Virus record (IMG/VR): IMGVR_UViG_3300020020_000168
Location: 1-22,160 of that record
DNA length: 22,160 nt
DNA from: a virus
Reading direction: 5' to 3' (one strand)
Shown: piece after piece, positions 3,423 to 18,618 of the stretch
How positions within the stretch are numbered: position 1 is the first letter of the stretch
How the letters are laid out: each line of letters starts with the position of its first letter
The notes under the pieces: model-generated
The model's database searches: none
Told to the model about the DNA's origin: nothing
Seen by the model: only the letters and a program-made list of their open reading frames with translations
Position numbers and translations under genes: made by a program

Positions 3423-3767
3423 ATGCCCGGCATCCCTAAGAGAGTCGTAGGCCCCGCCCTGGTGGCCACCGGCCCGACGACGGTCTACACCGTCCCGGCG
3501 AGCACGCGCACCGTGTTGCGTCACATCCACATCCAGAACCCATCGGGCTCAGTCGTGACCTTCTCGCTGTCCATCGGCGCGGACGCGGCAGGCACGCGCT
3601 TGTGGGACGCCTTCTCGATACCCGCCGCAGCGGCCGGTGAGCGTGAGTCCGTCAAGGACTTCTACGTCTACCTCCCTATGGAGGCGACGGAGACGATCCA
3701 GTTGAAGGCCGGGACGAACAACATCCTCACCGCCACGATCAGCGGGGACGTGATCCAGCTCTCCTAA
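3423..3767 (+). CDS. Putative small phage structural protein, 114 aa
   Basis: Preceded by TAAGGAG, again formed by the upstream stop codon. The sequence is beta-rich: TVYTVPASTRTVLRHIHIQN, followed by VTFSLSIGADAAGTRLWD and a C-terminal TISGDVIQLS. This layout (a 'tvYtvPa...lr.ihi.N' opening, a 'l.ig.daagtrl.d...ipa' centre and a short strand end) is one I associate with small virion proteins encoded next to tail fibres. No catalytic motif, membrane segment or signal peptide is present. It shares one base with the next gene (TAATG), so it belongs to the same operon as the fibre genes. Confidence 0.75.
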   Translation: MPGIPKRVVGPALVATGPTTVYTVPASTRTVLRHIHIQNPSGSVVTFSLSIGADAAGTRLWDAFSIPAAAAGERESVKDFYVYLPMEATETIQLKAGTNNILTATISGDVIQLS

Positions 3768-3979
3768 TGACTGATCTTGGAACCCCCGGAGAGCTGCGTC
3801 CCCTTGCCGAGCAGGTGCTCGTCTGGGTGCAGCGTGAGCGGTCGTGGAAGTCGCCGGAAGACGTGCTTATGCCGTCCGAAGATGACATCCGCCGCATTGA
3901 GCTGATGGCCCTCGCCGTCCGCGAGTGGTCGATGTTCTTGACCTTGTACGGCCTCAACCAGAAGGAGTCCCATGCGTAA
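3767..3979 (+). CDS. Hypothetical protein, 70 aa
   Basis: Starts at ATG 3767 on the TAATG overlap with the upstream gene and overlaps the secreted hydrolase start by eight bases. The product is acidic-amphipathic with predicted helices (LAEQVLVWVQRERSW, then DIRRIELMALAVREWSMFLT), three Trp residues and no signal peptide. The hydrophobic stretch near residues 45-62 is too interrupted for a confident membrane span. Coupling to both neighbours suggests co-expression with the secreted hydrolase. I do not recognise a family. Confidence 0.65.
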   Translation: MTDLGTPGELRPLAEQVLVWVQRERSWKSPEDVLMPSEDDIRRIELMALAVREWSMFLTLYGLNQKESHA

Positions 3980-5708
3980 GGCCATCGTCATCTTCATCGC
4001 CGCTCTCGCGCTCTCTCTTGTGGGAGCGCAAGCGGCGCTTGCCATAGGCCCTCCGGTCATCAACTCTGGCCCGGCTAGCCCGACGACCGCAACGGACGCC
4101 ACCTTCGTCTTCTCTCTCGACATCCCGCCCCCGAACAACACGATGGTCGCGGAGTGTTCGCTTGACGGATTCCCCTTCACGGTCTGCGCGAGTCCGAAGA
4201 CTTACTCGAACCTCTCACCGGCCACCCATCAGTTCCAAGTGCGCCAGAAGAAGTGCAAGGACGGCGTGTGCTCGCGCCCCTCTTCTCCGGCGACCTACTC
4301 TTGGACGATCACCGGCAGCGGCGGCAACCCCCCGAACATCGCGGGCGTCACTGACCCCTCCACCAACGAGGGCCTGAACGCCGTCTTCCGGGTCTGGTTC
4401 ACCGGCCCGACCGTAGCCTCGACGTTCCGCCTGGGGGTCACGTATAGCACCGCCTCGGCCGCGGACATCGGCCCGTTCACCTACTCGACCAACGGACAGT
4501 CCACCTGGCAGTCTCCGGCCGGTAACGGTGACATGACGCTGCCCGCAGGGCTCGCGGAGTTCCACATCCGCACCATGGCCCTCATCGACGGGCTGGCGGA
4601 GGCCAACGAGCGGTTTGACATCTCGATCTCTCCGATCACGAACGGAGGCACTGTCACAGGCAGCGCCTTCGCGACCATCATCGACGTGACCCAGCCGCCC
4701 GGAGTGGAATACCCGGCCTCCTACTTCACGGGCCCGCTCGGACAGGGCAACCTCCTGCCGACCGAGGACGGAGCCTTCCTGATCGCCTGGATCAACGCTC
4801 CGTTGTCAGAAGGATCGGGTTGGCCAGTCCATCAGGCCCAGATCGTCCAGCGTGAGTTCGAGATCGGGCGCGCGTACGACGGCCTCATGGTGACGGACTG
4901 GAACTTCGAGTGGGGCGAGAACCACATGTCGTGGATCAACTCTCGTGGCAGTATCCCCATCGCGAGCCTGAACTTCGGCTCTAGCGCGAGCGTGCTCAAC
5001 GGCTCGCAGAACTTCACCATCGACACCTATGCGGCCCACTACGCGGCGATGCCGTTCAAGGTGATGCTCCGCCTCAACCACGAGTTCAACTACGCGGGCC
5101 TCTCGTACACGTCGGTCGGCAACACGCAAGGCTTCGTGGACGCCTGGCGTTACGTCGTCAACCGCTTTACAGCGGCTGGCGCGAGCAACGTCGGCTTCTG
5201 GTGGAGTCCCGCCGAGGGCGGTGACCAGTCTCGCGCTGCAGACTGGGCCTCCTACCCCGGTGATGCGTACGTGGACTGGGTGGGTTCCGACCAGTACAAC
5301 CACTGCTACGTCGGAGAGGACTGCTACGCCACGCCGTACACCCCAGGCTGGGCTTCTTTCGGCGCGATCCTGGACTACGCACCCACTCCTCCGTGGGATC
5401 CTAACGCCACTCCGATCCCCACGAAGCACAACCAGCTCGGCCCCAGCAAGCCGTACATCGTCGGAGAGACCGGGACGGTCTACGACGCCGCGAACCCGTC
5501 CCTCAAGGGGCAGTGGTACGACGCGATCCCGGAGTACGCCGACGCCAACATGGAGTGGTTGCGCGGCGTCGCCTTCTTCGACGTGAACGCGGCGGAGCAG
5601 GGCGAAGACCCGAAGAACAACTGGCTCGTGGACTTCCCGACCTCGAATCCGTCCGTCCTCCAGGGCTTCCGCAACATGGCCCAAGACCCGTTCTTCAACG
5701 CACGATGA
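3972..5708 (+). CDS. Secreted GH26-like glycoside hydrolase with Ig-like and Calx-beta modules, 578 aa
   Basis: Preceded by AAGGAG. Residues 1-24 form a Sec signal peptide (basic MRK, hydrophobic core, ALA before the cleavage site). Residues about 27-113 form an Ig/FN3-like module of the CSLDG...C type, with four further Cys nearby. Residues about 122-240 fit a Calx-beta repeat (STNEGLNAVFRV, later GLAEANERFDISIS). Residues about 260-575 resemble the TIM barrel of GH26-type beta-mannanases and related glycan hydrolases: LRLNHEFN with H370/E371 as likely acid/base and IVGETG with E499 as likely nucleophile, about 130 residues apart. It would cleave a beta-linked polysaccharide outside the membrane. 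The substrate cannot be read from the sequence. A signal peptide is unusual for a virion depolymerase, so it is more likely secreted by the infected cell. Confidence 0.88.
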   Translation: MRKAIVIFIAALALSLVGAQAALAIGPPVINSGPASPTTATDATFVFSLDIPPPNNTMVAECSLDGFPFTVCASPKTYSNLSPATHQFQVRQKKCKDGVCSRPSSPATYSWTITGSGGNPPNIAGVTDPSTNEGLNAVFRVWFTGPTVASTFRLGVTYSTASAADIGPFTYSTNGQSTWQSPAGNGDMTLPAGLAEFHIRTMALIDGLAEANERFDISISPITNGGTVTGSAFATIIDVTQPPGVEYPASYFTGPLGQGNLLPTEDGAFLIAWINAPLSEGSGWPVHQAQIVQREFEIGRAYDGLMVTDWNFEWGENHMSWINSRGSIPIASLNFGSSASVLNGSQNFTIDTYAAHYAAMPFKVMLRLNHEFNYAGLSYTSVGNTQGFVDAWRYVVNRFTAAGASNVGFWWSPAEGGDQSRAADWASYPGDAYVDWVGSDQYNHCYVGEDCYATPYTPGWASFGAILDYAPTPPWDPNATPIPTKHNQLGPSKPYIVGETGTVYDAANPSLKGQWYDAIPEYADANMEWLRGVAFFDVNAAEQGEDPKNNWLVDFPTSNPSVLQGFRNMAQDPFFNAR

Positions 5709-5842
5709 ACCAGGCGTTCCTCGACGCCACGTCCCTTCTCGAAGAGGGCTACACCTGGATGCCCCAGGTGCTACTGATCGACCTCGTGGCCTTTCACGCG
5801 CTAGTCCGTCTGTACCGACGGCGCGGCCAGAGGATCGAATGA
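5705..5842 (+). CDS. Hypothetical small protein with hydrophobic segment, 45 aa
   Basis: ATG 5705 overlaps the hydrolase stop by four bases (ATGA), which is why I choose this start over longer readings of the frame inside the hydrolase gene. The product has an acidic N-terminus (LDATSLLEEGYTW), a hydrophobic stretch of about 16 residues (VLLIDLVAFHALVRL) and a basic end (YRRRGQRIE). This looks like a short amphipathic or membrane-associated helix with a cytoplasmic positive end. It lies between two secreted-protein genes. Function unknown. Confidence 0.6.
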   Translation: MNQAFLDATSLLEEGYTWMPQVLLIDLVAFHALVRLYRRRGQRIE

Positions 5843-5886
5843 TGGCCTACCTGTCCGACCAGACCAAAGGAGCTTCAGATGCGTGA
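5839..5886 (+). other. Possible 15-codon leader ORF overlapping the next gene start
   Basis: ATGATG at 5839 opens a 15-codon frame that carries the AAAGGAG ribosome binding site of the next gene and stops at 5884-5886, eight bases into that gene. It probably acts only as a coupling frame that carries ribosomes from the 45-aa gene to the 456-aa gene. It may be chance. Confidence 0.25.
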
Positions 5887-7249
5887 TCGTTTTTTCTTGC
5901 GATGGGCGGGCCTCCTTGCCCTCGTCGTTCTTGTAGCGGTGCCCGCGGCGTCTGCACTAGACACAGCACAGGCTCAACTGGCTGCGGCCGAGTCCGCTGT
6001 CGACATCCCATCGAGGGGCGTACAAGCCATCGTTAGTGTTCCGCAAGTGGTTCTCGACGGCGGTTCTGTCGTCTACAGCCATGTGAGGCTCGAAGCGGAC
6101 GCCGGTCATGCCCAGATCGGGTGGATGAAGTCAGAGGGTAACTCCAACAGCGACTTCGACTGCGACCCTGGGGGCAACGATGGAGGTGTCACCTTCGCCG
6201 GTATTCAGATCGAATCGCGGATCGGTGACACTTACTCCTGTCAGTTCATGGCAACCCCGCTCGGATATACCTGGGGGCAAGCGGTCGAGATGCGGGTTCA
6301 GTACGTCGGTACGGAGGAAGGCGACCCTGAGATCGACGGGGATTTCATCGCCTGGTTCGACAACTTCATTCCGTTCACGATGTATGACCTTGGCTGGATA
6401 CCGAGTTTCGTAGGCACGGCCGCGAGCGTTGGAAGTGAATGGTTCGCGGATTCGGCCGACTCTCCTTACCTATACAGGACGGCTTTCTCCGGCTTGGCAT
6501 ACCAGCCTGTTGATGCAGAGTTGGAAGATCCTTTCGTAGTTGCTGACGATGCACTCTTCCATCCGAAAGACCCTGTTTCGGAGCCGTTTGCATATAACTT
6601 CTACCACGGTTCTGACACTAACAGCGGCAGTATCGTCTACCCGGCTGAATCCATTATTTCCAATATGGTGCTCGACAACTTCAACCGTGCGGATGAGAAC
6701 CCGCTCTCGTTCGGCGGCAACTGGGCGCAGGGTCATACCTCTTGGTGTACGCATCCGCTGAAAGTTCTTTCCAACCGAGCGCGCTCGACCGCCAACAACT
6801 TCAACGGTGCCTACTGGACGCCCTCAACGTTCTCTGGGGACATAAAGGTATTCGGCAAGATGACAGACGGTTGGCCGACGAACTCCGCTTCCCAGCTAGG
6901 GCTTCTGAAAGACGTGACCGGAAACAACACTGTCGACGGCTATGTGACCTTCCTCGTCAAGACGATTGGTGGCTACAAAGTCCAGATACGCAGACTGACC
7001 AACAATGTCGCGACGATACTCAAGAACGTGTCTATGCCGGTCAATCCAGTACCCGGCGACCTGCTTCTGTTCCGCACAAACGGAGCCCTTCTACAGACCT
7101 TCATCTCGAAGGACTTGGGGCTAAGTTGGCTGAAGATCACGGAACACTCGGACAACACCTATCGCACCGGGCTATCGCTACACATCGGCGTAGGAGCAAC
7201 GAGCGGCGGCGGGCCGGGTTGGGACGACTTCGGCGGCGGGCTCGACTAA
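5879..7249 (+). CDS. Secreted protein with LamG-like C-terminal domain, 456 aa
   Basis: AAAGGAG lies seven bases before ATG 5879. Residues 1-26 form a Sec signal peptide (MRDRFFLRW, hydrophobic core, ASA). Residues about 45-180 are beta-rich with a Cys pair (C95, C121), followed by an Asp/Pro-rich linker to about 262. Residues about 264-456 begin VLDNFNRADENPLSFGGNW, a motif I associate with concanavalin/LamG-like jelly-roll domains in phage tail and secreted bacterial proteins, and end in GWDDFGGGLD. A carbohydrate-binding role beside the glycoside hydrolase is plausible. I see no catalytic motif. Composition is unlike the neighbours: 6541-6660 is 49% GC against 65% in a terminase sample, with many AT-ending codons, a sign of recent transfer. 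Confidence 0.75.
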   Translation: MRDRFFLRWAGLLALVVLVAVPAASALDTAQAQLAAAESAVDIPSRGVQAIVSVPQVVLDGGSVVYSHVRLEADAGHAQIGWMKSEGNSNSDFDCDPGGNDGGVTFAGIQIESRIGDTYSCQFMATPLGYTWGQAVEMRVQYVGTEEGDPEIDGDFIAWFDNFIPFTMYDLGWIPSFVGTAASVGSEWFADSADSPYLYRTAFSGLAYQPVDAELEDPFVVADDALFHPKDPVSEPFAYNFYHGSDTNSGSIVYPAESIISNMVLDNFNRADENPLSFGGNWAQGHTSWCTHPLKVLSNRARSTANNFNGAYWTPSTFSGDIKVFGKMTDGWPTNSASQLGLLKDVTGNNTVDGYVTFLVKTIGGYKVQIRRLTNNVATILKNVSMPVNPVPGDLLLFRTNGALLQTFISKDLGLSWLKITEHSDNTYRTGLSLHIGVGATSGGGPGWDDFGGGLD

Positions 7250-7563
7250 TGAAGCTCCAGGGCATCATCTACGTCATGGTCGTGGCGCTGGCCGCGGTGG
7301 CATGGTTCGCCCCGGTGGGCACCTCGCAGGAGGTGCTCCCCGAGCAGTCCGTGCTTCTCACCGCGTGCAAGTCGGCGACCCAGCTCGGACAGATCGGAGG
7401 CGTCAACGTCTCCCGCTGCCGGAAGGTCGTTGTGGTTGAGGAAGGGAACATCGCGCTCGTCACCGTGAAGGTCTGGGTGGACGGGCAGGGTACGTTCATC
7501 ATTCGCTTCGCGTACCAGAAGAGCGTCTGGAGTCAGTCCGCCGTGGATGTGCAGCCGGGATGA
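7249..7563 (+). CDS. Small exported protein, 104 aa
   Basis: ATG 7249 shares a base with the stop of the preceding gene (TAATG). Residues 1-26 form a signal peptide or N-terminal anchor (KLQGIIYVMVVALAAVAWFA, then PVGTSQ). The mature part has two Cys (in TACKSA and VSRCRKV), about 19 residues apart, that could form a disulfide outside the membrane. It continues as beta strands (KVVVVEEGNIALVTVKVWVD, then GTFIIRFAYQ). The fold looks like a small beta protein, and no family was recognised. It is translationally coupled to the metalloprotease downstream (ATGA), so an inhibitor, chaperone or partner role is possible but not shown. Confidence 0.75.
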   Translation: MKLQGIIYVMVVALAAVAWFAPVGTSQEVLPEQSVLLTACKSATQLGQIGGVNVSRCRKVVVVEEGNIALVTVKVWVDGQGTFIIRFAYQKSVWSQSAVDVQPG

Positions 7564-8093
7564 GGCTGGTCGCGGTCACGACCGTGATCTGGTGCGTCGT
7601 CGCGGTCTTCTGGTGGTTCACGATAGGAGCCGAAGTGGCACAAGCCCAGTACTCCCCCAGGAGCTTCAACGAGGCGTTGTCCGAGTTCATGGGCAGGCCG
7701 ATCCGCGTGGGCTACCAGGGCGGACAGGGCAACCTCTTCGCGAGTGGAGCCACCTCAAACGCTAAGGTCGGGCGCATCCACCTCCAGCGTCCCCACTATC
7801 GCGCGCTGACTTCGCAGGATCCGAACGCCGAGGGCCTGCCCCTCGCGCTCGGGATGCTGGCGCACGAGATGGGCCACTACTCGCCCGGCGCGGCGGACTA
7901 CCGCGGCACGCCGAACGGCACGGGGGGCTTGGACTACGATCTCAGCGTCCCAGAGGGGCTCGCCGACACCTACGCCTACACGAACATGCTCAAGATCGCC
8001 AAGTTCCTCGGCTACAGGCAGCCGAAACTTGTGGCCGCTCGGGCCGTCACCCGGTTCAAGCAGTTCCGCAAGGCCAACCCCTACGATCTGTGA
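7560..8093 (+). CDS. Exported zinc metalloprotease-like protein (HEXXH), 177 aa
   Basis: ATG 7560 overlaps the preceding stop (ATGA). Residues 1-29 form a signal peptide or N-terminal anchor (VAVTTVIWCVVAVFWWF, with AQA at 27-29 as a possible cleavage site). The mature domain carries the zinc motif HEMGH (H102, E103, H106) in the helix LALGMLAHEMGHYSPG. It is followed 26 residues later by PEGLADTYAY, whose E132 and D136 fit the third-ligand E-x-x-A-D segment of gluzincin-type peptidases. A basic C-terminal tail follows. At about 150 mature residues it is a minimal catalytic domain with no obvious propeptide. The likely role is peptide-bond cleavage outside the membrane, of a host envelope protein, a cross-link or a virion partner. 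The substrate is unknown. Confidence 0.82.
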   Translation: MRLVAVTTVIWCVVAVFWWFTIGAEVAQAQYSPRSFNEALSEFMGRPIRVGYQGGQGNLFASGATSNAKVGRIHLQRPHYRALTSQDPNAEGLPLALGMLAHEMGHYSPGAADYRGTPNGTGGLDYDLSVPEGLADTYAYTNMLKIAKFLGYRQPKLVAARAVTRFKQFRKANPYDL

Positions 8094-8106: not shown

Positions 8107-8283
8107 ATGCCCATGCCCCGCAAGTACCGCAACAACGCAGAGAAGCAGGCCGCGTACCGTGCGCGCCAGAAGGCGGGCAGGGTCGTGCCGCATCCCACGC
8201 GAGGCAACGAGGCCATCACCCGGCGTGTCATGGACGAGGGTCGCAAGTCCCTCGACGCCATCCTCGGGGACAGGAAGAAGTGA
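8107..8283 (+). CDS. Small basic protein, 58 aa
   Basis: Chosen start is ATG 8107, nine bases after GGGAGG; a longer reading into the protease gene has no site. The product is strongly basic, opening MPMPRKYRNNAEKQAAYRAR. That YRNNAEKQAAYRARQKAG motif is one I recall in many short phage and plasmid proteins and resembles a basic nucleic-acid-binding helix. The second half (EAITRRVMDEGRKSLDAILG) is probably a second helix. It may bind DNA or RNA. The actual target and role are unknown. Confidence 0.7.
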   Translation: MPMPRKYRNNAEKQAAYRARQKAGRVVPHPTRGNEAITRRVMDEGRKSLDAILGDRKK

Positions 8284-8286
8284 GCC

Positions 8287-8637
8287 ATGGGGCTACGCGG
8301 GAGCAAACCCGAACCCCAGAGCTGGAGCTACCGTTGCTCGATCTGCGCGATGAGCTACCCGATGGTCGGGCCGTGCAAGATCTGCGGCGAGCCTACTTCT
8401 GCGATCTCGCACTCCCCTCCCGACCCTGACTGGGAGTACAAGGTGGAGCTAGCTCTCGCGGTCGATCCCGAGTTCTTCGACAAGCCGACGCACTGGCGCT
8501 TCGAGCAGCTCGTGTTTGCCGGAGCCCCAGTCAAGTTCGCCGAGAAGATCGCCGCTGACCGCACCATCGACCTGCACAAAGCGTGCAAGCTCTTCCGTGA
8601 GGCGCCTGCGGATCTCGCGGTAGCGATCCTCCTGTGA
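8287..8637 (+). CDS. Zinc-ribbon protein, 116 aa
   Basis: ATG 8287 follows AGGAAG by several bases and lies three bases after the preceding stop. Residues 17-33 contain CSIC and CKIC (C17, C20, C30, C33), a compact CxxC-x9-CxxC zinc ribbon (rubredoxin-knuckle type). The remainder is helical (EYKVELALAVDPEFF, later LHKACKLFREAPADLAVAIL) with no catalytic signature. Such short zinc-ribbon proteins between phage late genes often turn out to be structural or head-maturation accessory proteins, but this is not established here. It has an overlapping GTG frame at its end. Confidence 0.75.
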   Translation: MGLRGSKPEPQSWSYRCSICAMSYPMVGPCKICGEPTSAISHSPPDPDWEYKVELALAVDPEFFDKPTHWRFEQLVFAGAPVKFAEKIAADRTIDLHKACKLFREAPADLAVAILL

Positions 8638-9939: not shown

Positions 9940-10139
9940 TGGACTGGTGGGAGGCCCCCGAGTGGGGCAAGCCTGTGGTCATGAAGTTCCCCGACCGATC
10001 ACGGTCATCGTCGATACCCGTGAAGCAGATCGGATGCTCAGGAGGCCCCGCTTGCGAGTGCCTCCGCGTCCGCGTCTTCGCCGAGCGGCCGATGCGAGCT
10101 GAGGTGCTGTGTGACCGAAAGACACCTGACCAGGGCTGA
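9939..10139 (+). CDS. Hypothetical protein, 66 aa
   Basis: ATG 9939 overlaps the preceding stop (TGATG) and has GAGG eight bases upstream; a GTG one codon earlier is an alternative. The product opens MDWWEAPEWGKPVVMKFPDR and contains a Cys trio (GCSGGPACECLR) that could bind metal or form a disulfide. Its last 29 bases overlap the terminase gene in another frame, so terminase translation may be coupled to it. No family was recognised. Confidence 0.6.
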   Translation: MDWWEAPEWGKPVVMKFPDRSRSSSIPVKQIGCSGGPACECLRVRVFAERPMRAEVLCDRKTPDQG

Positions 10140-11817
10140 GGCCCTGGAGCACTACAGGTACGAGAAGGCGCAGTCACACCCGCGCTTCCTCCTGCCCCAC
10201 ATGAGCGTCCCGGACTCCCGCGAGGGCGTCTTCTTCCAGTTCGCCACGTTGAGCTGGGAGGAGGCAGTCGAGCTGGAGATGCCGTTCCTCGCCGAGAACA
10301 TCTACCGCGGCGACGAGCCCTTGGGCGAGACGAGCTGGGGCTGGCAGCGCGACTACCTCGACTTCATCATCGACAACCCGTTCACGGTCACGCTCAAGGC
10401 GCGGCAGCTCGGGGTGTCGTGGATCTGGGACGGCGCGATCTGCTGGGATCTCCTCTTCTTCGCGGGCATCGACGACTTGATCTACTCGATCAAGGAGGAC
10501 GACGCCATCGAGCAGATCAACCGCGTGTGGGATCTCTGGCTCTCCCTCCCCGACTACATGAAGGTCGGGCTCAAGGTGCTCAAGCCGTGGGGCGATGCTC
10601 GCCCCTCGAACCGCATCGAGATCGAGCACCAGGACGGCCGTGTCTCGACCGTGACGGGGATGCCCGCCACGAAGAAGTCCGGCCACTCGCGCGTCGCCCG
10701 GCGCGTCCTCTTTGACGAGGGCGCCCACCAGGAGTTCGCGCGGCCGATCTGGAAGGCCATCATCCCCGCGGCAGGCGACTCGGGCGGCAACATCGGCGCG
10801 GTCTCGACCGCGAACGGGATGTCCGACGGCGCTGGCGGCGGCAACTTCTTCCACGAGCTGTACTCCGGCGCGGGCGGGGTGGACTACCCCAACGTGAAGG
10901 CGATCTTCCTCGACGTGTTCCGGCACCCGCAGCGCGACGAGAAGTGGTACGCCTCGCAGAATCTCGACGCCTCGTCCATGGCGGAGCAGTACCCGCGGGA
11001 CGACGACGAAGCCTTCCTCCTCACCGGCAACCCGTTCTTCGAGCTGGAGGCCCTCCACTACTACGCCCGCGAGGCAGCAGTCGAGCCCCTCGGCCGGTAT
11101 GCGTTCAAGACCTTCGGCACCAACATGGCCGCGGCCCGACTCACACGAGTGGACGGCGGCGAGCTGGAGATATACCGGCGTCCGACCGAGGACGGCAGCT
11201 ACTTCATCGGCGCGGACTGTGCGACCGGCGACGGCAAGGACTACTCGGTGGCCGCGGTCATCGACCTTGCCGACGGCGCCCCGTGCGCCGAGCTACGGAT
11301 GAAGGCCGACTACACGGACTTCACGCGCTCGCTCCACTTCCTCGGCCGGTACTACAACAGCGCCTGGATCGCCCCAGAGAAGGGCGGCGGCTACGGAGAC
11401 GTGGTGATCGCCTACCTCCGCGACGGCCACGAGGGGCGCAAGCCCTACGCGCGGCTCTACCGCCACCGTCAGTTCGACGACCCGCGGCAGAAGACCCGGA
11501 AGGTGTACGGCCTGCCGATGACGAAGCAGACGCGCGGCATGGTCGTGTCCGAGCTGAACGAGTGGGTCAACAAGCACCACTGGCCGTGGCTGACCAAGCG
11601 GTTCCGCACCGAGGCCCGCACGTTCGTGCGCCGCACCTCCGGGCCGAGCCCAGCGGCGGATGACGGCGCGAACGACGACTCGATCATGGCATGGGGCATC
11701 GCGCTCCTGCTCTACGCCCGGTACGGCACGGGCCACAAGTTCGACCGGCGGAAGCAGAAGGCCGAGCCCCGCCCGACCCCCGTAACCAACCCGCTCCAAC
11801 CTAGTTCGAGGAGATGA
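10111..11817 (+). CDS. terL: Terminase large subunit (DNA-packaging ATPase/nuclease), 568 aa
   Basis: GTG 10111 has GAGGT six bases upstream. This is the motor that cuts concatemeric DNA and pumps it through the portal. The ATPase half shows a variant Walker A (KARQLGVSW, residues 96-104) and a Walker B with catalytic Glu (VLFDEGA, D202/E203). It is followed by a VSTANGMS coupling-type segment near 231-238. The nuclease half (from about 365) has an RNase H-like first strand, GADCATGDGKDYS (D369 the likely metal ligand), and a late acidic pair in NDDSIMAWG (about 521-529). Length is normal for TerL. It overlaps both neighbours and precedes the portal, the usual order. No small terminase was confidently recognised beside it. 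Confidence 0.95.
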   Translation: MTERHLTRAEALEHYRYEKAQSHPRFLLPHMSVPDSREGVFFQFATLSWEEAVELEMPFLAENIYRGDEPLGETSWGWQRDYLDFIIDNPFTVTLKARQLGVSWIWDGAICWDLLFFAGIDDLIYSIKEDDAIEQINRVWDLWLSLPDYMKVGLKVLKPWGDARPSNRIEIEHQDGRVSTVTGMPATKKSGHSRVARRVLFDEGAHQEFARPIWKAIIPAAGDSGGNIGAVSTANGMSDGAGGGNFFHELYSGAGGVDYPNVKAIFLDVFRHPQRDEKWYASQNLDASSMAEQYPRDDDEAFLLTGNPFFELEALHYYAREAAVEPLGRYAFKTFGTNMAAARLTRVDGGELEIYRRPTEDGSYFIGADCATGDGKDYSVAAVIDLADGAPCAELRMKADYTDFTRSLHFLGRYYNSAWIAPEKGGGYGDVVIAYLRDGHEGRKPYARLYRHRQFDDPRQKTRKVYGLPMTKQTRGMVVSELNEWVNKHHWPWLTKRFRTEARTFVRRTSGPSPAADDGANDDSIMAWGIALLLYARYGTGHKFDRRKQKAEPRPTPVTNPLQPSSRR

Positions 11818-12192: not shown

Positions 12193-14118
12193 GTGGCGAA
12201 GAGGAAGAACCAGGACGCGCTTGACCGCGCGGTGAAGTTCATCGACGACTGCCGCGGCCATCACGACAAGCTGATGCGCGAGGTGGACACGCGGAGCGAC
12301 GCCTACCACGGCGTCGTGAAGAAGAACTCTGCCGCCGCCGAATGGCGGTCGAAGGTGTACGGCAAGTACGCCATGCACATCGTTGAGACGACCCTGGCCT
12401 CGCTCGTGGAGGACAAGCTCCGCTTCAAGATCCGACCGCGGATGACGCTGGCTGACCTCAACGACCCAGGAGCCCCCGAGCGCCTGCGTCTGGGTGCGGA
12501 GGCGCACACCATGCTCTTCGACTGGCAGTCACGGCAGTCGAAGTTCACGCGCGTCCAGCGCCCGTTCCTCCTCCAGAACGCCATCGCGGGGATCACCTTC
12601 GCCAAGACCTACTGGGAGGAGCGCGTCGAGCGCCGCCGCCGGATGATCACGGTGGATCGACCGCTGCTCGACGACAACGACGAGCCCATCCTGCACCCCG
12701 TGCATGGCCCGGTGATGTACCCGCAGCTCGAAGAGGACGTGCGTCCGGTGTCAGTCTATGACGGCCCGATGACGGACGTGATCGACGCCCACGACATGTT
12801 CTGGGCGGAGAACGCCACCACCCTCTCGCAGTCGCGCTACATCGGCCACCGCATCCGCATCTCCCGCGAGGACTTGGAGCGCGGCTTCCGCGACGGCGGG
12901 CCGTACGGCCCCGAGCAGGGCGGGTGGAGCTGGAAGGTCGTGTCGGCCGGACTCGGCGAGAACCGCCAGGGAGACCGCGACGGCGGGCCACGCTGGAGCG
13001 CCAAGGAGCAGACCCATGACAAGGATCTCCTCGAAGTCATGGAGGTGTACGACCTCTTCACGAAGGAGGTGATCACCTACGTCAACCGCACGCAGCTCAT
13101 CGCGTACAAGGATCAGTTCCCCTTCTTCCACGAGCAGCCGCCGTTTACCGTCTGCACCACGCAGCCTGACCTCTTCCAGATCGTCGGCGTGAGCCAGATC
13201 GAGAAGGTCGAGGCGCTCCAGACGATGCTCTGGCGGATCCAGAACCAGTCGCTCGACTCCCTGGAGTTGATCAACACTGCCATCGTCATGTACCGTCCCG
13301 ATCTGGAGGACGCGGACGCGCTCGTGTTCGCTCCGGGAGCGATGTGGGCGGTCGAAGATCCCGAGCAGGTGAAGATGTGGTCGCCGGAGGGCTACCCCGC
13401 TGACATCTCGCTCAACCGCGAGGGCCTGATCAAGGGTGACATGCAGCAGCTCGCCGGAGGCTTCCCATTCTCCTCGGGAGCCGAGTCGCAGACGGTCGAT
13501 CAGAAGACGGCCACGGGCGCGAGCATCGTCTCGCAGCTCGCCCAGCGCAGCATCGACATGGCGAAGCAGCCGGTCTACGACGCCTGGGAGGACATCGGCA
13601 ACCAACGCCTGATCCTCAACAACCAGTTCATCCGCGAGACCACGCTCGTCACCGTCCTCGGCCTCGAAGGGGTCGAAGAGGTGAAGCAGATCGAGCCCGA
13701 GCTGCTCGCCGGAGACTACGAGTTCGAGCTGGAAGCGATCCCCGACGCGATCATGAAGCAGCAGAACCAGGCGCAGGCGCAGGCCATGGTTCAGATCTTC
13801 CAGGGGCTCGCCCCGATCCAGCTCCAGCTCGCCGCGCAGGGTATGGCCAGCATGATCAACTTCGACGCCGTGGTGAAGTACTACCTCAAGGCTATGGACA
13901 TCGAGGACACCGAGCAGTTCTTCATCGCCAAGCAGCCCGGCCCTGGCGCCGCGGTGGATCCGCAGGGCTCGCAGCCCGCACCGGGTGAGGGGGCTCCGCT
14001 AGGCATCACCGCGGGCGAGGGCGGCACCGCCCCAGGCACGCAGTTGACCAGCTCGCCAGACCAGAACATGCAGCGGGCGCTCTCCATGGGTGGTGATCCG
14101 GGTGGCACTAACGTCTGA
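12193..14118 (+). CDS. Portal protein, 641 aa
   Basis: GTG 12193 follows the preceding stop by one base; no ATG fits the N-terminus (MAKRKNQDALDRAVKFIDDC). The portal is the dodecameric ring at one capsid vertex through which DNA enters and leaves and onto which the tail docks. Support: position directly after TerL and before scaffold and capsid, large size, helical N-terminal part, a central beta-rich region (residues about 180-340, with MTDVIDAHDMFWAENATTL and VYDLFTKEVITYVN), long helices around EKVEALQTMLWRIQNQSLDS, and a Gln/Ala-rich helix (QQNQAQAQAMVQIFQ) typical of a portal barrel region. The C-terminus is Gly/Pro-rich. It overlaps the later gene only if that gene uses its earlier GTG. 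Confidence 0.88.
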   Translation: MAKRKNQDALDRAVKFIDDCRGHHDKLMREVDTRSDAYHGVVKKNSAAAEWRSKVYGKYAMHIVETTLASLVEDKLRFKIRPRMTLADLNDPGAPERLRLGAEAHTMLFDWQSRQSKFTRVQRPFLLQNAIAGITFAKTYWEERVERRRRMITVDRPLLDDNDEPILHPVHGPVMYPQLEEDVRPVSVYDGPMTDVIDAHDMFWAENATTLSQSRYIGHRIRISREDLERGFRDGGPYGPEQGGWSWKVVSAGLGENRQGDRDGGPRWSAKEQTHDKDLLEVMEVYDLFTKEVITYVNRTQLIAYKDQFPFFHEQPPFTVCTTQPDLFQIVGVSQIEKVEALQTMLWRIQNQSLDSLELINTAIVMYRPDLEDADALVFAPGAMWAVEDPEQVKMWSPEGYPADISLNREGLIKGDMQQLAGGFPFSSGAESQTVDQKTATGASIVSQLAQRSIDMAKQPVYDAWEDIGNQRLILNNQFIRETTLVTVLGLEGVEEVKQIEPELLAGDYEFELEAIPDAIMKQQNQAQAQAMVQIFQGLAPIQLQLAAQGMASMINFDAVVKYYLKAMDIEDTEQFFIAKQPGPGAAVDPQGSQPAPGEGAPLGITAGEGGTAPGTQLTSSPDQNMQRALSMGGDPGGTNV

Positions 14119-14122
14119 TCGC

Positions 14123-14527
14123 ATGGCGCTCCTGTCTCGCGTCGCGGCCATAGCGGACGACGAGCTTGAGCTGATGGTCAAGATGGCCGACGCGGGCGCC
14201 TTCGCAAGCGACCCGCCCCTCGACCCTGACGACATCCTCGACGAGGAACAACTCCAGTCTGTCCAGATGAACGTCGCCGTCCTCAAGGAGCACGAGGCGT
14301 TCAAGCATCTCGCGATCTGGATTCGCTCGAAGCGTGCGCGCTACTGGCTGCGCATCGCCGAGGGCCTGGCCAACAACGACAAGCCTGTCGATCAACGTGA
14401 GATCGACTTCAAGCGCGGGTTCTGGACGGGGGCCAACTGGTTCGCGTCCGTAGCGCCCGGACAAGCCGCCGCCGCCTTCCTGCGGCGCGCGGCCGACGAC
14501 GAAGCAAGAGAGGAGTTGACTGACTGA
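14123..14527 (+). CDS. Hypothetical head-module protein, 134 aa
   Basis: I choose ATG 14123, five bases after the portal stop; a GTG at 14090 in the same frame would overlap the portal gene and is less likely. The product is acidic and helical (AAIADDELELMVKMADAG, later EEQLQSVQMNVAVLKEHEAF), with a Trp/Arg-rich central segment (LAIWIRSKRARYWLRIAEGL) and FWTGANWFAS near the end. It overlaps the scaffold gene by one base (TGATG). Its place between portal and scaffold suggests an assembly accessory role, unproven. Confidence 0.75.
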   Translation: MALLSRVAAIADDELELMVKMADAGAFASDPPLDPDDILDEEQLQSVQMNVAVLKEHEAFKHLAIWIRSKRARYWLRIAEGLANNDKPVDQREIDFKRGFWTGANWFASVAPGQAAAAFLRRAADDEAREELTD

Positions 14528-15609
14528 TGTCAGAACTCGAATCCGAGCTGCAAGAGCAGTTCGAGAAGGACGGCACGGCACAGTTCGTGAGAGATCACAT
14601 CGCTGCGGCCAACGCCGTTCAGTCCCCCGAGGCGGATGCCGAGGACACGGACTCGACCCCGAGTGAGACGGACGAGCTTGACACGACAGAGCCCGTCACC
14701 CCGGAGGAGCCGACTGCGGTCGCCTCCCCGGTCGAGGACGAGGCCGTCGAGCCGCTCGCGGACGGAGAGGACGAGGAGATGTTCCTCGAACTCACGCCCG
14801 AGTTGGAGGCTCTCATCAACGAGAAGTACGACGGCGACATCAACAAGGCGCTCAACGCCTTGCCGAACGCCCAGTCGGTCATCGGACGCCAAGGCAACGA
14901 GCTGGGCGATGTCAAACGCCAGCTCGCTGAGATCCAGGAGCAACTCGCCCGTCCGGCCCCGCAGTCCTACGCAGCGTGGCCAGACCCGGACGACGAGCCC
15001 GAAGAGATCGTCCCCGTCTACCGCGAGATCGCGGAGGCAGCGTTCGTCAACGAAGACCCCCAGACCTTCATCAGATCGGTGGAGACCTGGGCTCAGGTAG
15101 ACCCCCTCGGGGCTGCCACGTTCCGCGACTCTAAGCGAGTCGAGCTACTCCTCCGGGAACGGGAAGATCAACCCCTCTCGGCACAGGATGACCTCGAACC
15201 GCGCATGGCCGCGCTCGTGGCGAAGTACCCAGAGATCCAGAAGCCCGAGATCCAGCAGGAGATCGGGAAGCTGGCGCAGGCACGGCCCACCCTCGGCCGG
15301 TTGCTTGCGGACGCCACGACCGAAGAGCGCGTTCAGATCCTCGAAGATCTGTACGTCGAAGTTGCGGGCCGACAAGCGTCGGACACCTCGCAGACGGCGC
15401 TCAGGCGTGTGGCGATCAAGCGAAGCGAGGAAGCCACTCAGGCACGGCAGGCGGCGCAGGTCGCCCGCGGTGGCGGTGGAACACCGAAGCCGACGGAGCC
15501 CGAGGACGTTCGTATTCCCATGGGGAAGACGAAGCAGTCCATGAGCGCCAACAAGCTCGGTGCAGAACTCGAAGCGATCTTCGGCCACAAGGTCGAGATC
15601 GGCGAGTGA
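14527..15609 (+). CDS. Putative capsid scaffolding protein, 360 aa
   Basis: Starts on the TGATG overlap with the upstream gene. Residues about 30-90 are extremely acidic and disordered (repeated D/E, T, P, V). A charged helical and coiled-coil region follows (NELGDVKRQLAEIQEQLA near 120-137), and the C-terminus is Gly/Lys/Pro-rich with a basic-hydrophobic end (ELEAIFGHKVEIGE). This acidic-coiled-basic layout, directly upstream of the major capsid gene, is characteristic of scaffolds that bind capsid subunits through a C-terminal helix and leave before maturation. I see no protease motif. Confidence rests on position and composition, not on recognised family similarity. Confidence 0.82.
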   Translation: MSELESELQEQFEKDGTAQFVRDHIAAANAVQSPEADAEDTDSTPSETDELDTTEPVTPEEPTAVASPVEDEAVEPLADGEDEEMFLELTPELEALINEKYDGDINKALNALPNAQSVIGRQGNELGDVKRQLAEIQEQLARPAPQSYAAWPDPDDEPEEIVPVYREIAEAAFVNEDPQTFIRSVETWAQVDPLGAATFRDSKRVELLLREREDQPLSAQDDLEPRMAALVAKYPEIQKPEIQQEIGKLAQARPTLGRLLADATTEERVQILEDLYVEVAGRQASDTSQTALRRVAIKRSEEATQARQAAQVARGGGGTPKPTEPEDVRIPMGKTKQSMSANKLGAELEAIFGHKVEIGE

Positions 15610-15616
15610 AACGGGC

Positions 15617-15632
15617 CGTCCCTCCTGGGACG
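15617..15632 (+). promoter_or_regulatory. Stem-loop in the capsid gene leader
   Basis: CGTCCC (15617-15622), loop TCCT, GGGACG (15627-15632): a perfect 6-bp hairpin starting eight bases after the scaffold stop. No T-run follows. It could be a weak terminator, an RNA processing site or a stability element between scaffold and capsid. Confidence 0.45.
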
Positions 15633-15637
15633 ACACC

Positions 15638-15671
15638 CCTCCGTTAGCACCACTCCAACAAACGGAGGAGG
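15638..15671 (+). promoter_or_regulatory. Hairpin that sequesters the capsid gene ribosome binding site
   Basis: CCTCCGTT (15638-15645) pairs perfectly with AACGGAGG (15661-15668) across a 15-base loop. The 3' strand contains the first GGAGG of the very strong Shine-Dalgarno region GGAGGAGG (15664-15671), and the ATG is at 15678. When folded, the best ribosome site would be hidden. Translation of the scaffold gene stops just upstream and could not open this stem directly. It probably sets capsid output relative to scaffold. Structure seen; control inferred. Confidence 0.5.
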
Positions 15672-15677
15672 GCCATC

Positions 15678-16850
15678 ATGGCTCTTGCAGTAGCAACCGG
15701 AGTCCAGGACACAGAGACGGGGCTCGCAGACGAGCACGTCGTGGACATGGATCCCGCAATCGGAATGAAGCAGGACGACACTGCTCAGTTCATGACGATC
15801 CTCGGGAAGCTGCCTTCCAAGGCCGCAACCCAGATCAAGGTGAACTGGCTGGAGGACGAGTACATGCCGGTACTCACGTCCCTCGCGTCCGGCTCAATCA
15901 CGGCAACCGGCCAGACGGCGATCTCGGTCGCGTCCGGCGAAGGCGCGTACATCCGTGCCAACGACATCCTCTACATCGCAGAGACGGGCGAGAAGGTCTC
16001 GGTCACATCGCTGACCGGCGACGCTCTCACCATCGTGCGTTCGGTGGGTGGCGTTGCTGCGGCAACCGCCTCGACCGGCTCGCAGGTCGTGATCCTCGGG
16101 CCTTCATCCGCACAGGGAGCCGACACCGGCACCCTCAAGGCGACGAAGCGCGTTCTGGGGTTCAACTACACCCAGATCTTCCGTGACCCGTTCGGGTTCA
16201 CGGGTACCGAGGCAGAGGCCGAGCTGTACGGCGCAGACGACCCCGAGCGGGAAACCGCGAAGAAGGCCGTCGAGCACCGTCGGCACCTCGAAGCCAGCCT
16301 GTGGGTCGGAGGGCGCGACTTCACGTCGAACCCGCCGAACTCCATCGGCTACATGGGCGGAGTGTCCGAGTTCCTGGTCTCCAACGTCTTCGCGACGTTC
16401 GGAGCGATCAGTCTCTCGGGCTTCGACCTCAAGATGCAGCAGATCTTCCAGCAGGGCTCGATGAACAAGGTTCTGTTCATGGCGCCGACCGCTGCTGGCG
16501 CTCTGTCGCGTCTGCTCGCCAACAACTGGGTTCGTGCCACGCCTGGCGAGAACGTCTACGGCGCGAAGGTCAACGCCTTCGTGAACGGGGCGTATGGCGA
16601 CTCCGTTCCGGTGATCGTCAAGAGGGAGTGGGGAGCGTTCTCCACCGCAGGGTTTTCCCTGGGTGGCGCGGTCTTCGCCCTCGACCTCGACCGTGTTTCG
16701 CGGCGTCCGTTCAGGAACCGCGACACGCGCCTCCTGCCGAACCGGCAGGGCAACGGCGAGGACAAGGTGGTCTTCGACTACCTGACCGAAACGTCCCTGG
16801 AGCTGAAGAACGAGTCGGCTCATGGGGTGTTCTGGGGCGTCACCGGCTGA
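15678..16850 (+). CDS. Major capsid protein (SU10/DUF5309-like), 390 aa
   Basis: ATG 15678 lies behind the strong GGAGGAGG site. The protein forms the hexamers and pentamers of the icosahedral head. Residues about 60-145 look like an inserted beta domain (TSLASGSITATGQTAISVAS and SVTSLTGDALTIVRSVGG). NYTQIFRDPFGFTGTEAEAE at 163-182, followed by a helix rich in Glu/Arg, matches the pattern I recall in SU10-like (DUF5309) capsid proteins, which have the HK97 fold. Size is normal, the scaffold is upstream and a strong terminator-like hairpin follows. No prohead-protease delta domain is evident. Exact family placement should be taken as likely rather than certain. Confidence 0.9.
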   Translation: MALAVATGVQDTETGLADEHVVDMDPAIGMKQDDTAQFMTILGKLPSKAATQIKVNWLEDEYMPVLTSLASGSITATGQTAISVASGEGAYIRANDILYIAETGEKVSVTSLTGDALTIVRSVGGVAAATASTGSQVVILGPSSAQGADTGTLKATKRVLGFNYTQIFRDPFGFTGTEAEAELYGADDPERETAKKAVEHRRHLEASLWVGGRDFTSNPPNSIGYMGGVSEFLVSNVFATFGAISLSGFDLKMQQIFQQGSMNKVLFMAPTAAGALSRLLANNWVRATPGENVYGAKVNAFVNGAYGDSVPVIVKREWGAFSTAGFSLGGAVFALDLDRVSRRPFRNRDTRLLPNRQGNGEDKVVFDYLTETSLELKNESAHGVFWGVTG

Positions 16851-16936: not shown

Positions 16937-17530
16937 ATGGCGCGATTCGTTTCGCAGTACAAGGGGTACTCGCACGGAGTGCGTGCAGGCAAGGAGGCTC
17001 GTCTCGGCCCGAACGGCGTGATGATCCCCGAGCAGCCCGCGTTGGAGGCCAAGTTCGAGCACGAGCAGATGGACGCCGAGGCGGTCTTGATCGCCAAGAA
17101 GCCCATTGAAGAGGGCGGGCTCGCGAACAGCAATCCGCTCAAGCCCCCGTTCCACGGTATGCAGGAGAACGAGGCCGGTCGTGAGTACGATGTCACGCCG
17201 CGTCTCGCGCTCTTCGACTCCGAGCGGGCGCAGCTCAAGAACGAGTGGACTGACGAGGATCGGATTCTCGTTGAGGACACTCTTCGGGCCTCGAACTTCA
17301 ACGGCGTCCACTTCGTGGAGGTTGTCCCCGAGCCACCCGTCAAGCCGTGGCGCGGATACGACGACGAAACCGATGCTGACCAGATCCTGTACCTGGCGAA
17401 GGCCATCGACGCCGACCTGAATCAGGTCATCGCGTACGAGGCTGCCAACCAGAACCGTCTCGAAGTCCTCTCGGGCCTCGAACTGGCGGCGCAGGAGCAG
17501 GCAGAGGAAACGACGGTCGTCACCGCGTGA
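16937..17530 (+). CDS. Hypothetical post-capsid protein, 197 aa
   Basis: ATG 16937 has AAGGAG about 12 bases upstream, somewhat far but the only good site. The protein opens MARFVSQYKGYSHGVRAGKE, then carries mixed charged segments (EQPALEAKFEHEQMDAEAVL), a segment with DVTPRLALFDSERAQLKNEW, and an acidic helical end (EVLSGLELAAQEQAEETT). No Cys, membrane span or signal is seen. Phage genes directly after the capsid often encode head-completion or decoration proteins, which is the best guess here. I recognise no family. It overlaps the glycosyltransferase start by four bases. Confidence 0.75.
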   Translation: MARFVSQYKGYSHGVRAGKEARLGPNGVMIPEQPALEAKFEHEQMDAEAVLIAKKPIEEGGLANSNPLKPPFHGMQENEAGREYDVTPRLALFDSERAQLKNEWTDEDRILVEDTLRASNFNGVHFVEVVPEPPVKPWRGYDDETDADQILYLAKAIDADLNQVIAYEAANQNRLEVLSGLELAAQEQAEETTVVTA

Positions 17531-18618
17531 GGCACGCAGAAACAGCGGCCCGGATCGCGCATGTAGAGAGCGTGATCCCGGACGTGTCTCGAACTCCCGA
17601 CGAAGGGTGCCTGGCGACCTTCTGGCGTCAGGCATCCATCGGGACTTCGTACGTCCGCTGCGCCGTCCCGGCGCGCTGGCTTCCAGCGCAGATGATCGGC
17701 TTCGAGATGTCCGACCTCAAGTGGGAGGGCGACGAAGACACTGGCCACATGGTCATGCCCCGACAGCGGGGCGCGGCGATCTGGCAGTTCCTCGGCGACG
17801 ACGTGCGCGGCCGTGTTGCTCTCGCGCAGCAGGAGACCGGCGTCCGCACCCTCTTGGAGGTGGACGACAACTACCTCTACTCGCCGGGCAAGTGGTACCC
17901 GTGGGCGAAGACCCACGAGGAAGCGATGGCCAACCGCGGCACGACCGTGGGCCATAGTCACGAGCAGCACCGCCACCTCGCAGGGCTCGTGGACGGCATC
18001 ATCGTCACCACCGACTTCCTGGGCGACCGCTACGCAGATTTCAACGACAACGTGTACGTGTGCCCCAACTCCGTTGACCCGAACGACTGGGACTGGGAGC
18101 GGCCCGAGCCCGACGGCATCCTCCGTATCGGGTTCGCCGGAGCGCCGACACACATCTTCGACTACGCCCTGGTCAAGCGCGCGCTCAAGTGGGCGCAGCG
18201 CCAGGAGGGCGTCGAGGTATACCTGATGGGGTTCCATGCCACCGGGTTCACCGGCACGCGTATGGACTGGACGGACTCCATCCCGGAGTACCAGCGCCAG
18301 CTCGGGCTCCTCGACGTGGGCCTCTGCCCCGTCGTCAACCAGAACTGGATCAAGGGCAAGTCCGACCTCAAGGCCCTGGAGTACGCCATGGCTGGCGCGC
18401 TGCCAGTGGTCTCCCGCACGCTGCCGTACCTGCCCTGGCTCGAACGCGACTACCCCTACGTCGCCCAGACGGAGGAGGACTGGATGCGCGTCGTCCAGGA
18501 TCTCGTGCGCAACCGTGACAAGATCGCGGGCGCCGCCGCCGAGGCGAAGGAGTACGTCGAAAACGAGCGCATGATCTACAAGAGCATCGACCGCTGGAGG
18601 GAGGCGATCCGCGCATGA
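17527..18618 (+). CDS. Glycosyltransferase, GT-B type, 363 aa
   Basis: GTG 17527 overlaps the preceding stop (GTGA). The N-terminal half (residues 25-180) has TLLEVDDNYLYSP at 108-120 and GIIVTTDFLGDRY at 157-169, ending with the GT-B marker PNSVDPNDW. The C-terminal half begins ILRIGFAGAPTHIFDYALV, a nucleotide-sugar-domain opening, and carries DVGLCPVV and SDLKALEYAMAGALPVVS (about 279-296), whose ALEYAMAGALPVV motif matches the donor-binding helix of GT1/GT4-type enzymes. It would transfer a sugar from a nucleotide donor. Beside the capsid gene, a role in virion glycosylation is plausible; modification of host surface or DNA cannot be excluded. Confidence 0.88.
   Translation: MRHAETAARIAHVESVIPDVSRTPDEGCLATFWRQASIGTSYVRCAVPARWLPAQMIGFEMSDLKWEGDEDTGHMVMPRQRGAAIWQFLGDDVRGRVALAQQETGVRTLLEVDDNYLYSPGKWYPWAKTHEEAMANRGTTVGHSHEQHRHLAGLVDGIIVTTDFLGDRYADFNDNVYVCPNSVDPNDWDWERPEPDGILRIGFAGAPTHIFDYALVKRALKWAQRQEGVEVYLMGFHATGFTGTRMDWTDSIPEYQRQLGLLDVGLCPVVNQNWIKGKSDLKALEYAMAGALPVVSRTLPYLPWLERDYPYVAQTEEDWMRVVQDLVRNRDKIAGAAAEAKEYVENERMIYKSIDRWREAIRA

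Follow-up and report, generated by a model that had tools for sequence, protein, structure and literature searches.

Why does a phage late region encode a run of proteins that appear destined for export? The question is raised by a window that comprises a whole IMG/VR record, a linear fragment of 22,160 bases from a soil-type virus that infects bacteria. All of its genes lie on the + strand and encode, in order, a collagen-like protein, the exported-protein run, terminase, portal, SU10-type capsid and further late proteins. The terminase large subunit (10111..11817, +; phrog_2, 8e-19) is followed by a segment (12193..16850, +) that extends from the portal gene at 12193 to the SU10-type major capsid protein gene at 15678 (Pfam SU10_MCP in the set of the relative G001). 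G001 (IMGVR_UViG_3300043313_000750, 49.5 kb) is the sole close relative found, with identities of 80% for the portal and 88% for the capsid; G002–G005 are more distant 48-kb phages with terminase, portal and capsid in common at 28–40%. The collagen-like repeat protein (1722-2741) has a conserved 78-aa head with 76% identity to G001, and a glycosyltransferase (phrog_7162) at 17527-18618, within the structural gene run, is 78% conserved there.

DNA polymerase A, a primase-polymerase and endonuclease VII are among the 38 G001 proteins scanned, and the families listed for the 38 contain no integrase or repressor; the window phage is thus apparently virulent. A prophage search by capsid across 376 genomes returned matches of 25–27% only. 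Benefit to a lysogen, one of the roles proposed in the initial annotation of the run, is disfavored by the lack of an integrase or repressor among those listed families.

Export signals were assessed with a home-made score based on a positive n-region, a 10-residue charge-free h-core and small residues at positions −3/−1. Signal-like N-termini were found in 4 of the 31 window genes (3972, 5879, 7249 and 7560, named by their first positions) and in none of the remainder, and all four fall in one block of five consecutive genes; four random genes among 31 would lie within five consecutive ones in 109 of 31465 cases (~0.35%). As background, nine of 1,570 ORFs (at least 60 aa, any frame, six related phages) score at least 3.0. 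The two top scores belong to 5879 (4.66, first) and 3972 (4.45, second), followed by 7249 (3.86) and 7560 (3.19); 7249 is missing from the list of 1,570 because its frame opens upstream. The mature parts of the four proteins contain no further transmembrane stretch. The Sec-type signals noted earlier are therefore borne out by the score and confined to the five-gene run, and the four proteins are probably exported through the host Sec pathway. Export of envelope enzymes seems to be a habit of this phage group, as G002, G004 and G005 encode small, signal-bearing, transglycosylase-like proteins (G002:41084-41473, +; G004:43595-43939, −; G005:704-1036, −). Two of these adjoin the terminase, and only that of G005 has a Pfam match (PF06737, weak, E 0.0026).

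The gene at 3972..5708 (+) encodes a 578-aa protein with the signal peptide MRKAIVIFIAALALSLVGAQAALA, an Ig-like and a second beta-type region (aa ~28-235) and a GH26 catalytic domain (aa ~240-577). Its match to Pfam PF02156 passes the curated threshold (22.5 bits against a cutoff of 20.2), and its nearest solved relatives are endoglucanase H (PDB, E 0.0032) and mannanases. Both catalytic glutamates are kept, the acid/base in RLNHEFN and the nucleophile in VGETG; across 175 aligned domains the former is conserved in 174 and the latter in 170. The glycoside hydrolase proposed at the outset can thus be placed in GH26 and is catalytically complete by sequence.

Peptide-pattern searches retrieved no relative of 3972 from viruses or genomes, and none of 5879 from viruses. 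A scan of IMG/VR for the motif YPGDxYVDW found GH26 relatives that these searches had not, in 30 contigs, nearly all of which contain a GH26 domain. In the tree 3972 belongs to a five-member clade with full support, alongside the enzymes of G009, G010 and G011 and that of Pseudonocardia autotrophica, which is its sister (support 100/97; 46% over the catalytic domain). The Pseudonocardia enzyme has an N-terminal membrane anchor, and its gene lies among genes for a Wzz/kinase, an initiating sugar-transferase, glycosyltransferases and a Wzx-type flippase. This position within an exopolysaccharide cluster points to exopolysaccharide as the likely substrate class of 3972. It also lends support to the earlier suggestion of biofilm or capsule dispersal, and a role in polysaccharide breakdown is plausible, the balance tipping slightly in its favor. 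The Ig-like region of 3972 matches repeats in another actinobacterial genome (44%).

Other substrates of GH26 enzymes are mannans and mixed-linkage glucans; 3972 could thus alternatively act on a plant polymer. An exported GH26 that degrades plant or soil polysaccharide and feeds the infected host, as an auxiliary metabolic gene, would have company in a soil-virus GH5 with proven endomannanase activity (PMC6786970) and in the GH26 genes recorded for viruses of mangrove soil and tundra (PMC6460857, PMC10127799). We consider this improbable, as the nearest cellular relative lies within an exopolysaccharide synthesis cluster and the infection, given that no integrase occurs among the scanned G001 proteins, is probably short.

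The score assigns a signal to two of the 26 phage-encoded GH26 ORFs whose 5' ends are complete; visual inspection adds lipobox-type N-termini in another two, those of G009 and L057. A signal is thus lacking in 22 of 26 if the lipobox cases are counted as signal-bearing, and in 24 of 26 by score alone; among bacterial GH26s, 78 of 120 score as signal-bearing. Only in the window and in G009, verified as a phage by its terminase, portal and capsid, was a signal-bearing GH26 observed between packaging and head genes. G009 encodes two more signal- or lipobox-bearing proteins (31233-31979, −; 6069-6563, +), the former with the look of a TIM-barrel hydrolase by eye and no Pfam match. A separate set of signal-less GH26 proteins (G016:27696-30044, L037, L044, L054, L060, L064 and L065) shares a C-terminal extension of ~465 aa; these form a family apart, probably of virion depolymerases.

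The gene at 5879..7249 (+) encodes a 456-aa protein whose signal peptide ends in VPAASA. Its C-terminal ~190 aa (DNFNRAD...WDDFGGG) share homology with a segment of a 1458-aa protein from the phage G013; the gene for the latter lies near a terminase-like gene and two genes from one for a GH26 that has no signal. The homology is limited to this part, the N-terminal region having no detectable phage homologue. The protein has no Pfam match, PHROG, NCBIfam and PDB sequence searches gave nothing useful, and its AF2 model has a pLDDT of 30. Of the earlier description as a LamG-type sugar binder, a probable carbohydrate-binding partner is retained, but LamG itself finds no Pfam match and no backing in a model of such low pLDDT. 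That two unrelated phages pair a GH26 with a 5879-type domain suggests joint action of the two on one polymer.

These proteins might instead be virion depolymerases, with hydrophobic N-termini that are retained or assembly-related and with the proteins carried on the particle. The late regions of G010 and G011 do contain GH26s of the 3972 subfamily without a signal, and the 5879 domain occurs in the 1458-aa late protein of G013. Virion proteins of tailed phages assemble in the cytoplasm, however, and the products of two window genes combine strong signals, predicted to be cleaved at AXA sites, with soluble mature parts, which makes a place on the virion unlikely.

The last two genes of the run encode a small protein of 104 aa (7249..7563, +) and a putative zinc peptidase of 177 aa (7560..8093, +), both predicted to be exported. 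The start of 7249 overlaps the stop of 5879 (TAATG), and that of 7560 overlaps the stop of 7249 (ATGA). Protein 7249 had been called a small disulfide-type exported protein: the signal is present, and Cys40 and Cys57 allow one possible disulfide. No homologue of it was found, G001 included. Protein 7560 has a signal ending in EVAQA, the motif HEMGH and, later, EGLADTYA. Its G001 homologue is 39% identical and conserves the HExxH together with flanking residues. This conservation favors the metalloprotease originally proposed, but no family match was obtained in Pfam, PHROG or NCBIfam, and a PDB sequence search gave nothing useful. Assignment as a metzincin was rejected on the HExxHxxGxxH/D motif, as in HEMGHYSPGAAD and HELGHFSTGGRS the Gly falls one place late and position 11 holds no H/D. 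The M48-like gluzincin arrangement, with HEMGH and EGLADTYA, is seen in the window, but in the G001 homologue the Glu of ExxAD is displaced by one residue; a gluzincin-type zinc site is possible. The AF2 model (pLDDT 60) gave a weak match to the zinc peptidase 3c37 (Z 2.7, 109 residues, rmsd 5.2), and Foldseek searches against PDB and viral libraries returned nothing with E <0.001. Neither 7560 nor 5879 was found in 396 Actinomycetota genomes in a phylum-wide search run without a positive control.

The G001 homologue (L003:5475-5999 = G001:29945-30470, −) has no signal peptide when read from its first standard start, GTG. Its frame is open upstream and encodes RLLHPLVSLAAVAALALTGAPVAQSA; this stretch ends in AQSA, at the site aligned with the end of the window signal. 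An ATT start with a purine-rich stretch upstream, overlapping the end of the upstream gene, would yield a signal. We infer that the ATT is used and that the signal peptide is probably conserved. An uncharacterized HExxH protein, predicted to be exported, is thus common to at least two phages.

Comparison with G001 also bears on how the run arose. The window ORFs were confirmed, with coupled translation or strong ribosome-binding sites: 3972 (AAGGAG) and 5879 (AAAGGAG) have strong sites of their own, and at 5705, 7249 and 7560 an overlap of stop and start codons couples each gene to its predecessor. To the left of the GH26 gene lies a conserved 70-aa protein (3767..3979, +; G001 homologue 69% identical by tblastn, and gene order), and to the right a small conserved protein of 45 aa (5705..5842, +). 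The G001 homologue of 5705 aligns without gaps, at a score that 0 of 5000 shuffles reach, and lies directly 3' of the 3767 homologue. The GH26 gene is therefore an exact insert between the two. Protein 5705 had been taken for a small hydrophobic protein; it has no 19-residue window with mean hydropathy of at least 1.6 and no signal peptide, and is a conserved gene product that is neither membrane-bound nor exported. G001 has no homologues of 5879 and 7249, and the nearest phage relatives lack both GH26 and 5879. The GC content of 5879 is the lowest of the run (57%, z −2.4), making it compositionally foreign. Judged by this comparison, 5879 and 7249 represent a further acquisition, separate from the GH26 insertion, and the HExxH gene 7560 is a resident common to G001. 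Two conserved small genes, 8107 and 8287 (8107..8637, +), have homologues upstream of the peptidase homologue in G001, so the local order there differs from that in the window. The single coordinated cassette of the initial annotation thus dissolves into two separate insertions and one resident exported gene, and the four genes as a single coordinated system are unproven. Its remark that no known phage system has this exact set holds, the full set being absent from the phage collections searched: nowhere else in them do an exported GH26, an exported lectin-like protein and an exported HExxH protein share one late run.

This history gives weight to a reading in which no joint system exists: 7560, with or without 7249, would be an exported lysis helper, and GH26 and 5879 independent, late-acquired depolymerase genes. 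G001 shares 7560, lacks GH26, 5879 and 7249 and has a different gene order; relatives have signal-bearing transglycosylase-like proteins at comparable places; and precedents exist in Mtz-Tim, with increased phage lysis (PMC8235301), and in Lys44 (PMC6116005). On the other side, coupling in the window ties 7560 to 7249 and 5879, making their co-expression probable, the metzincin motif is missing, and no peptidoglycan hydrolase domain was detected in 3972, 5879, 7249 or 7560 with Pfam, PHROG or NCBIfam. Two unrelated jobs are a serious contender, though we would not bet on them. A lysis module of all four genes was rejected, as the NlpC/P60 protein and small membrane protein of G001 lie far off, after a 2281-aa protein.

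We favor, with a probability of roughly 0.55, a late-infection role for an exported depolymerase and lectin acting on host polysaccharide and for a separate exported metallopeptidase that targets the envelope. From the N-termini, catalytic residues, insertion boundaries and homologies evident in the sequence we infer export, substrate, timing and joint action as follows. Products of the late-region genes would leave the infected cell via the host Sec pathway. The GH26 would cut a host-made extracellular polysaccharide, capsule or biofilm matrix, probably actinobacterial, to which the 5879 protein would also bind. The HExxH protein, possibly with 7249, may attack proteins of the envelope or material linked to the wall, thereby aiding lysis and virion release. 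Jointly, the coat around the dying cell would be loosened, allowing progeny to escape and reach neighbors. The genes would have arrived separately, the peptidase being older and GH26 and 5879/7249 later insertions into a site that tolerates exported proteins. Exported enzymes could conceivably also remove a receptor, and superinfection exclusion by stripping infected and neighboring cells of a polysaccharide receptor has a parallel, by another mechanism, in the suggestion made for the secreted P1312 ORF22 (PMC4569894); we regard it as very unlikely here.

A bolder version of the coat-loosening reading, a pre-lysis secretion programme of depolymerase, lectin partner, new-family zinc peptidase and cognate small protein, is doubtful. 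If true, the matrix around the infected cell would be dissolved while that cell still lives, a public good from which the burst profits. To our knowledge, phage depolymerases have been studied almost entirely as parts of the virion tail. If depolymerase, lectin-like partner and peptidase are all exported, infected cells could be turned into secretion factories that target their own coat, and enzyme activity would be predicted in the supernatant ahead of lysis. Annotators of "auxiliary metabolic genes" in soil viruses should weigh host exopolysaccharide as a substrate over plant carbon.

Several components have counterparts among known systems, as Sec-exported endolysins, a secreted carbohydrate-binding phage protein, signal-less biofilm-polysaccharide enzymes and soil-virus GH26/GH5 enzymes are already described. 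Lys44 of Oenococcus phage fOg44 is a signal-peptide endolysin exported by host Sec during infection (PMC6116005). The window shares the use of host Sec by phage enzymes, as predicted from its genes, and a cleavable N-terminal signal peptide by sequence score alone; unlike that single cell-wall lytic enzyme, it combines a GH26 with a lectin-like protein and a putative peptidase. In Listeria, the phage-derived metzincin/TIMP-like pair Mtz-Tim sensitizes cells to phage lysins (PMC8235301). Here too an exported HExxH protein of phage origin adjoins a small exported protein, with a proposed envelope effect, but the window lacks HExxHxxGxxH/D, 7249 has no lipobox and no TIMP-fold assignment, and the order is reversed. 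With no 7249 homologue in G001, the pairing is not general. ORF22 of Thermobifida phage P1312 is an actinophage protein with a signal peptide and a carbohydrate-binding module, proposed to be secreted (PMC4569894); unlike the window run, it is a single gene with a metallophosphatase domain. Bacillus phage GH32 levan enzymes, proposed to act extracellularly on biofilm exopolysaccharide (PMC4595243), lack the signal peptide of the window GH26. The soil phage Caudovirales GX15bay (MK557849; PMC6460857) has GH26-type "endoglucanase" and "mannanase" genes. By its sequence the "endoglucanase" (L002:8441-9970) is GH26-like with an N-terminal hydrophobic anchor, and it adjoins a multi-span glycosyltransferase. 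Unlike those of the window, the GX15bay genes lie among glycosyltransferases with no peptidase or lectin partner seen, and their similarity to 3972 is distant (36% over about 100 aa). The closest parallel in position is G009 (IMGVR_UViG_3300039437_000036), whose GH26 belongs to the same subfamily (35%), has a signal/lipobox N-terminus and lies between terminase and portal, but in an unrelated genome whose 38-kb contig has no significant homologue of 5879, 7249 or 7560.
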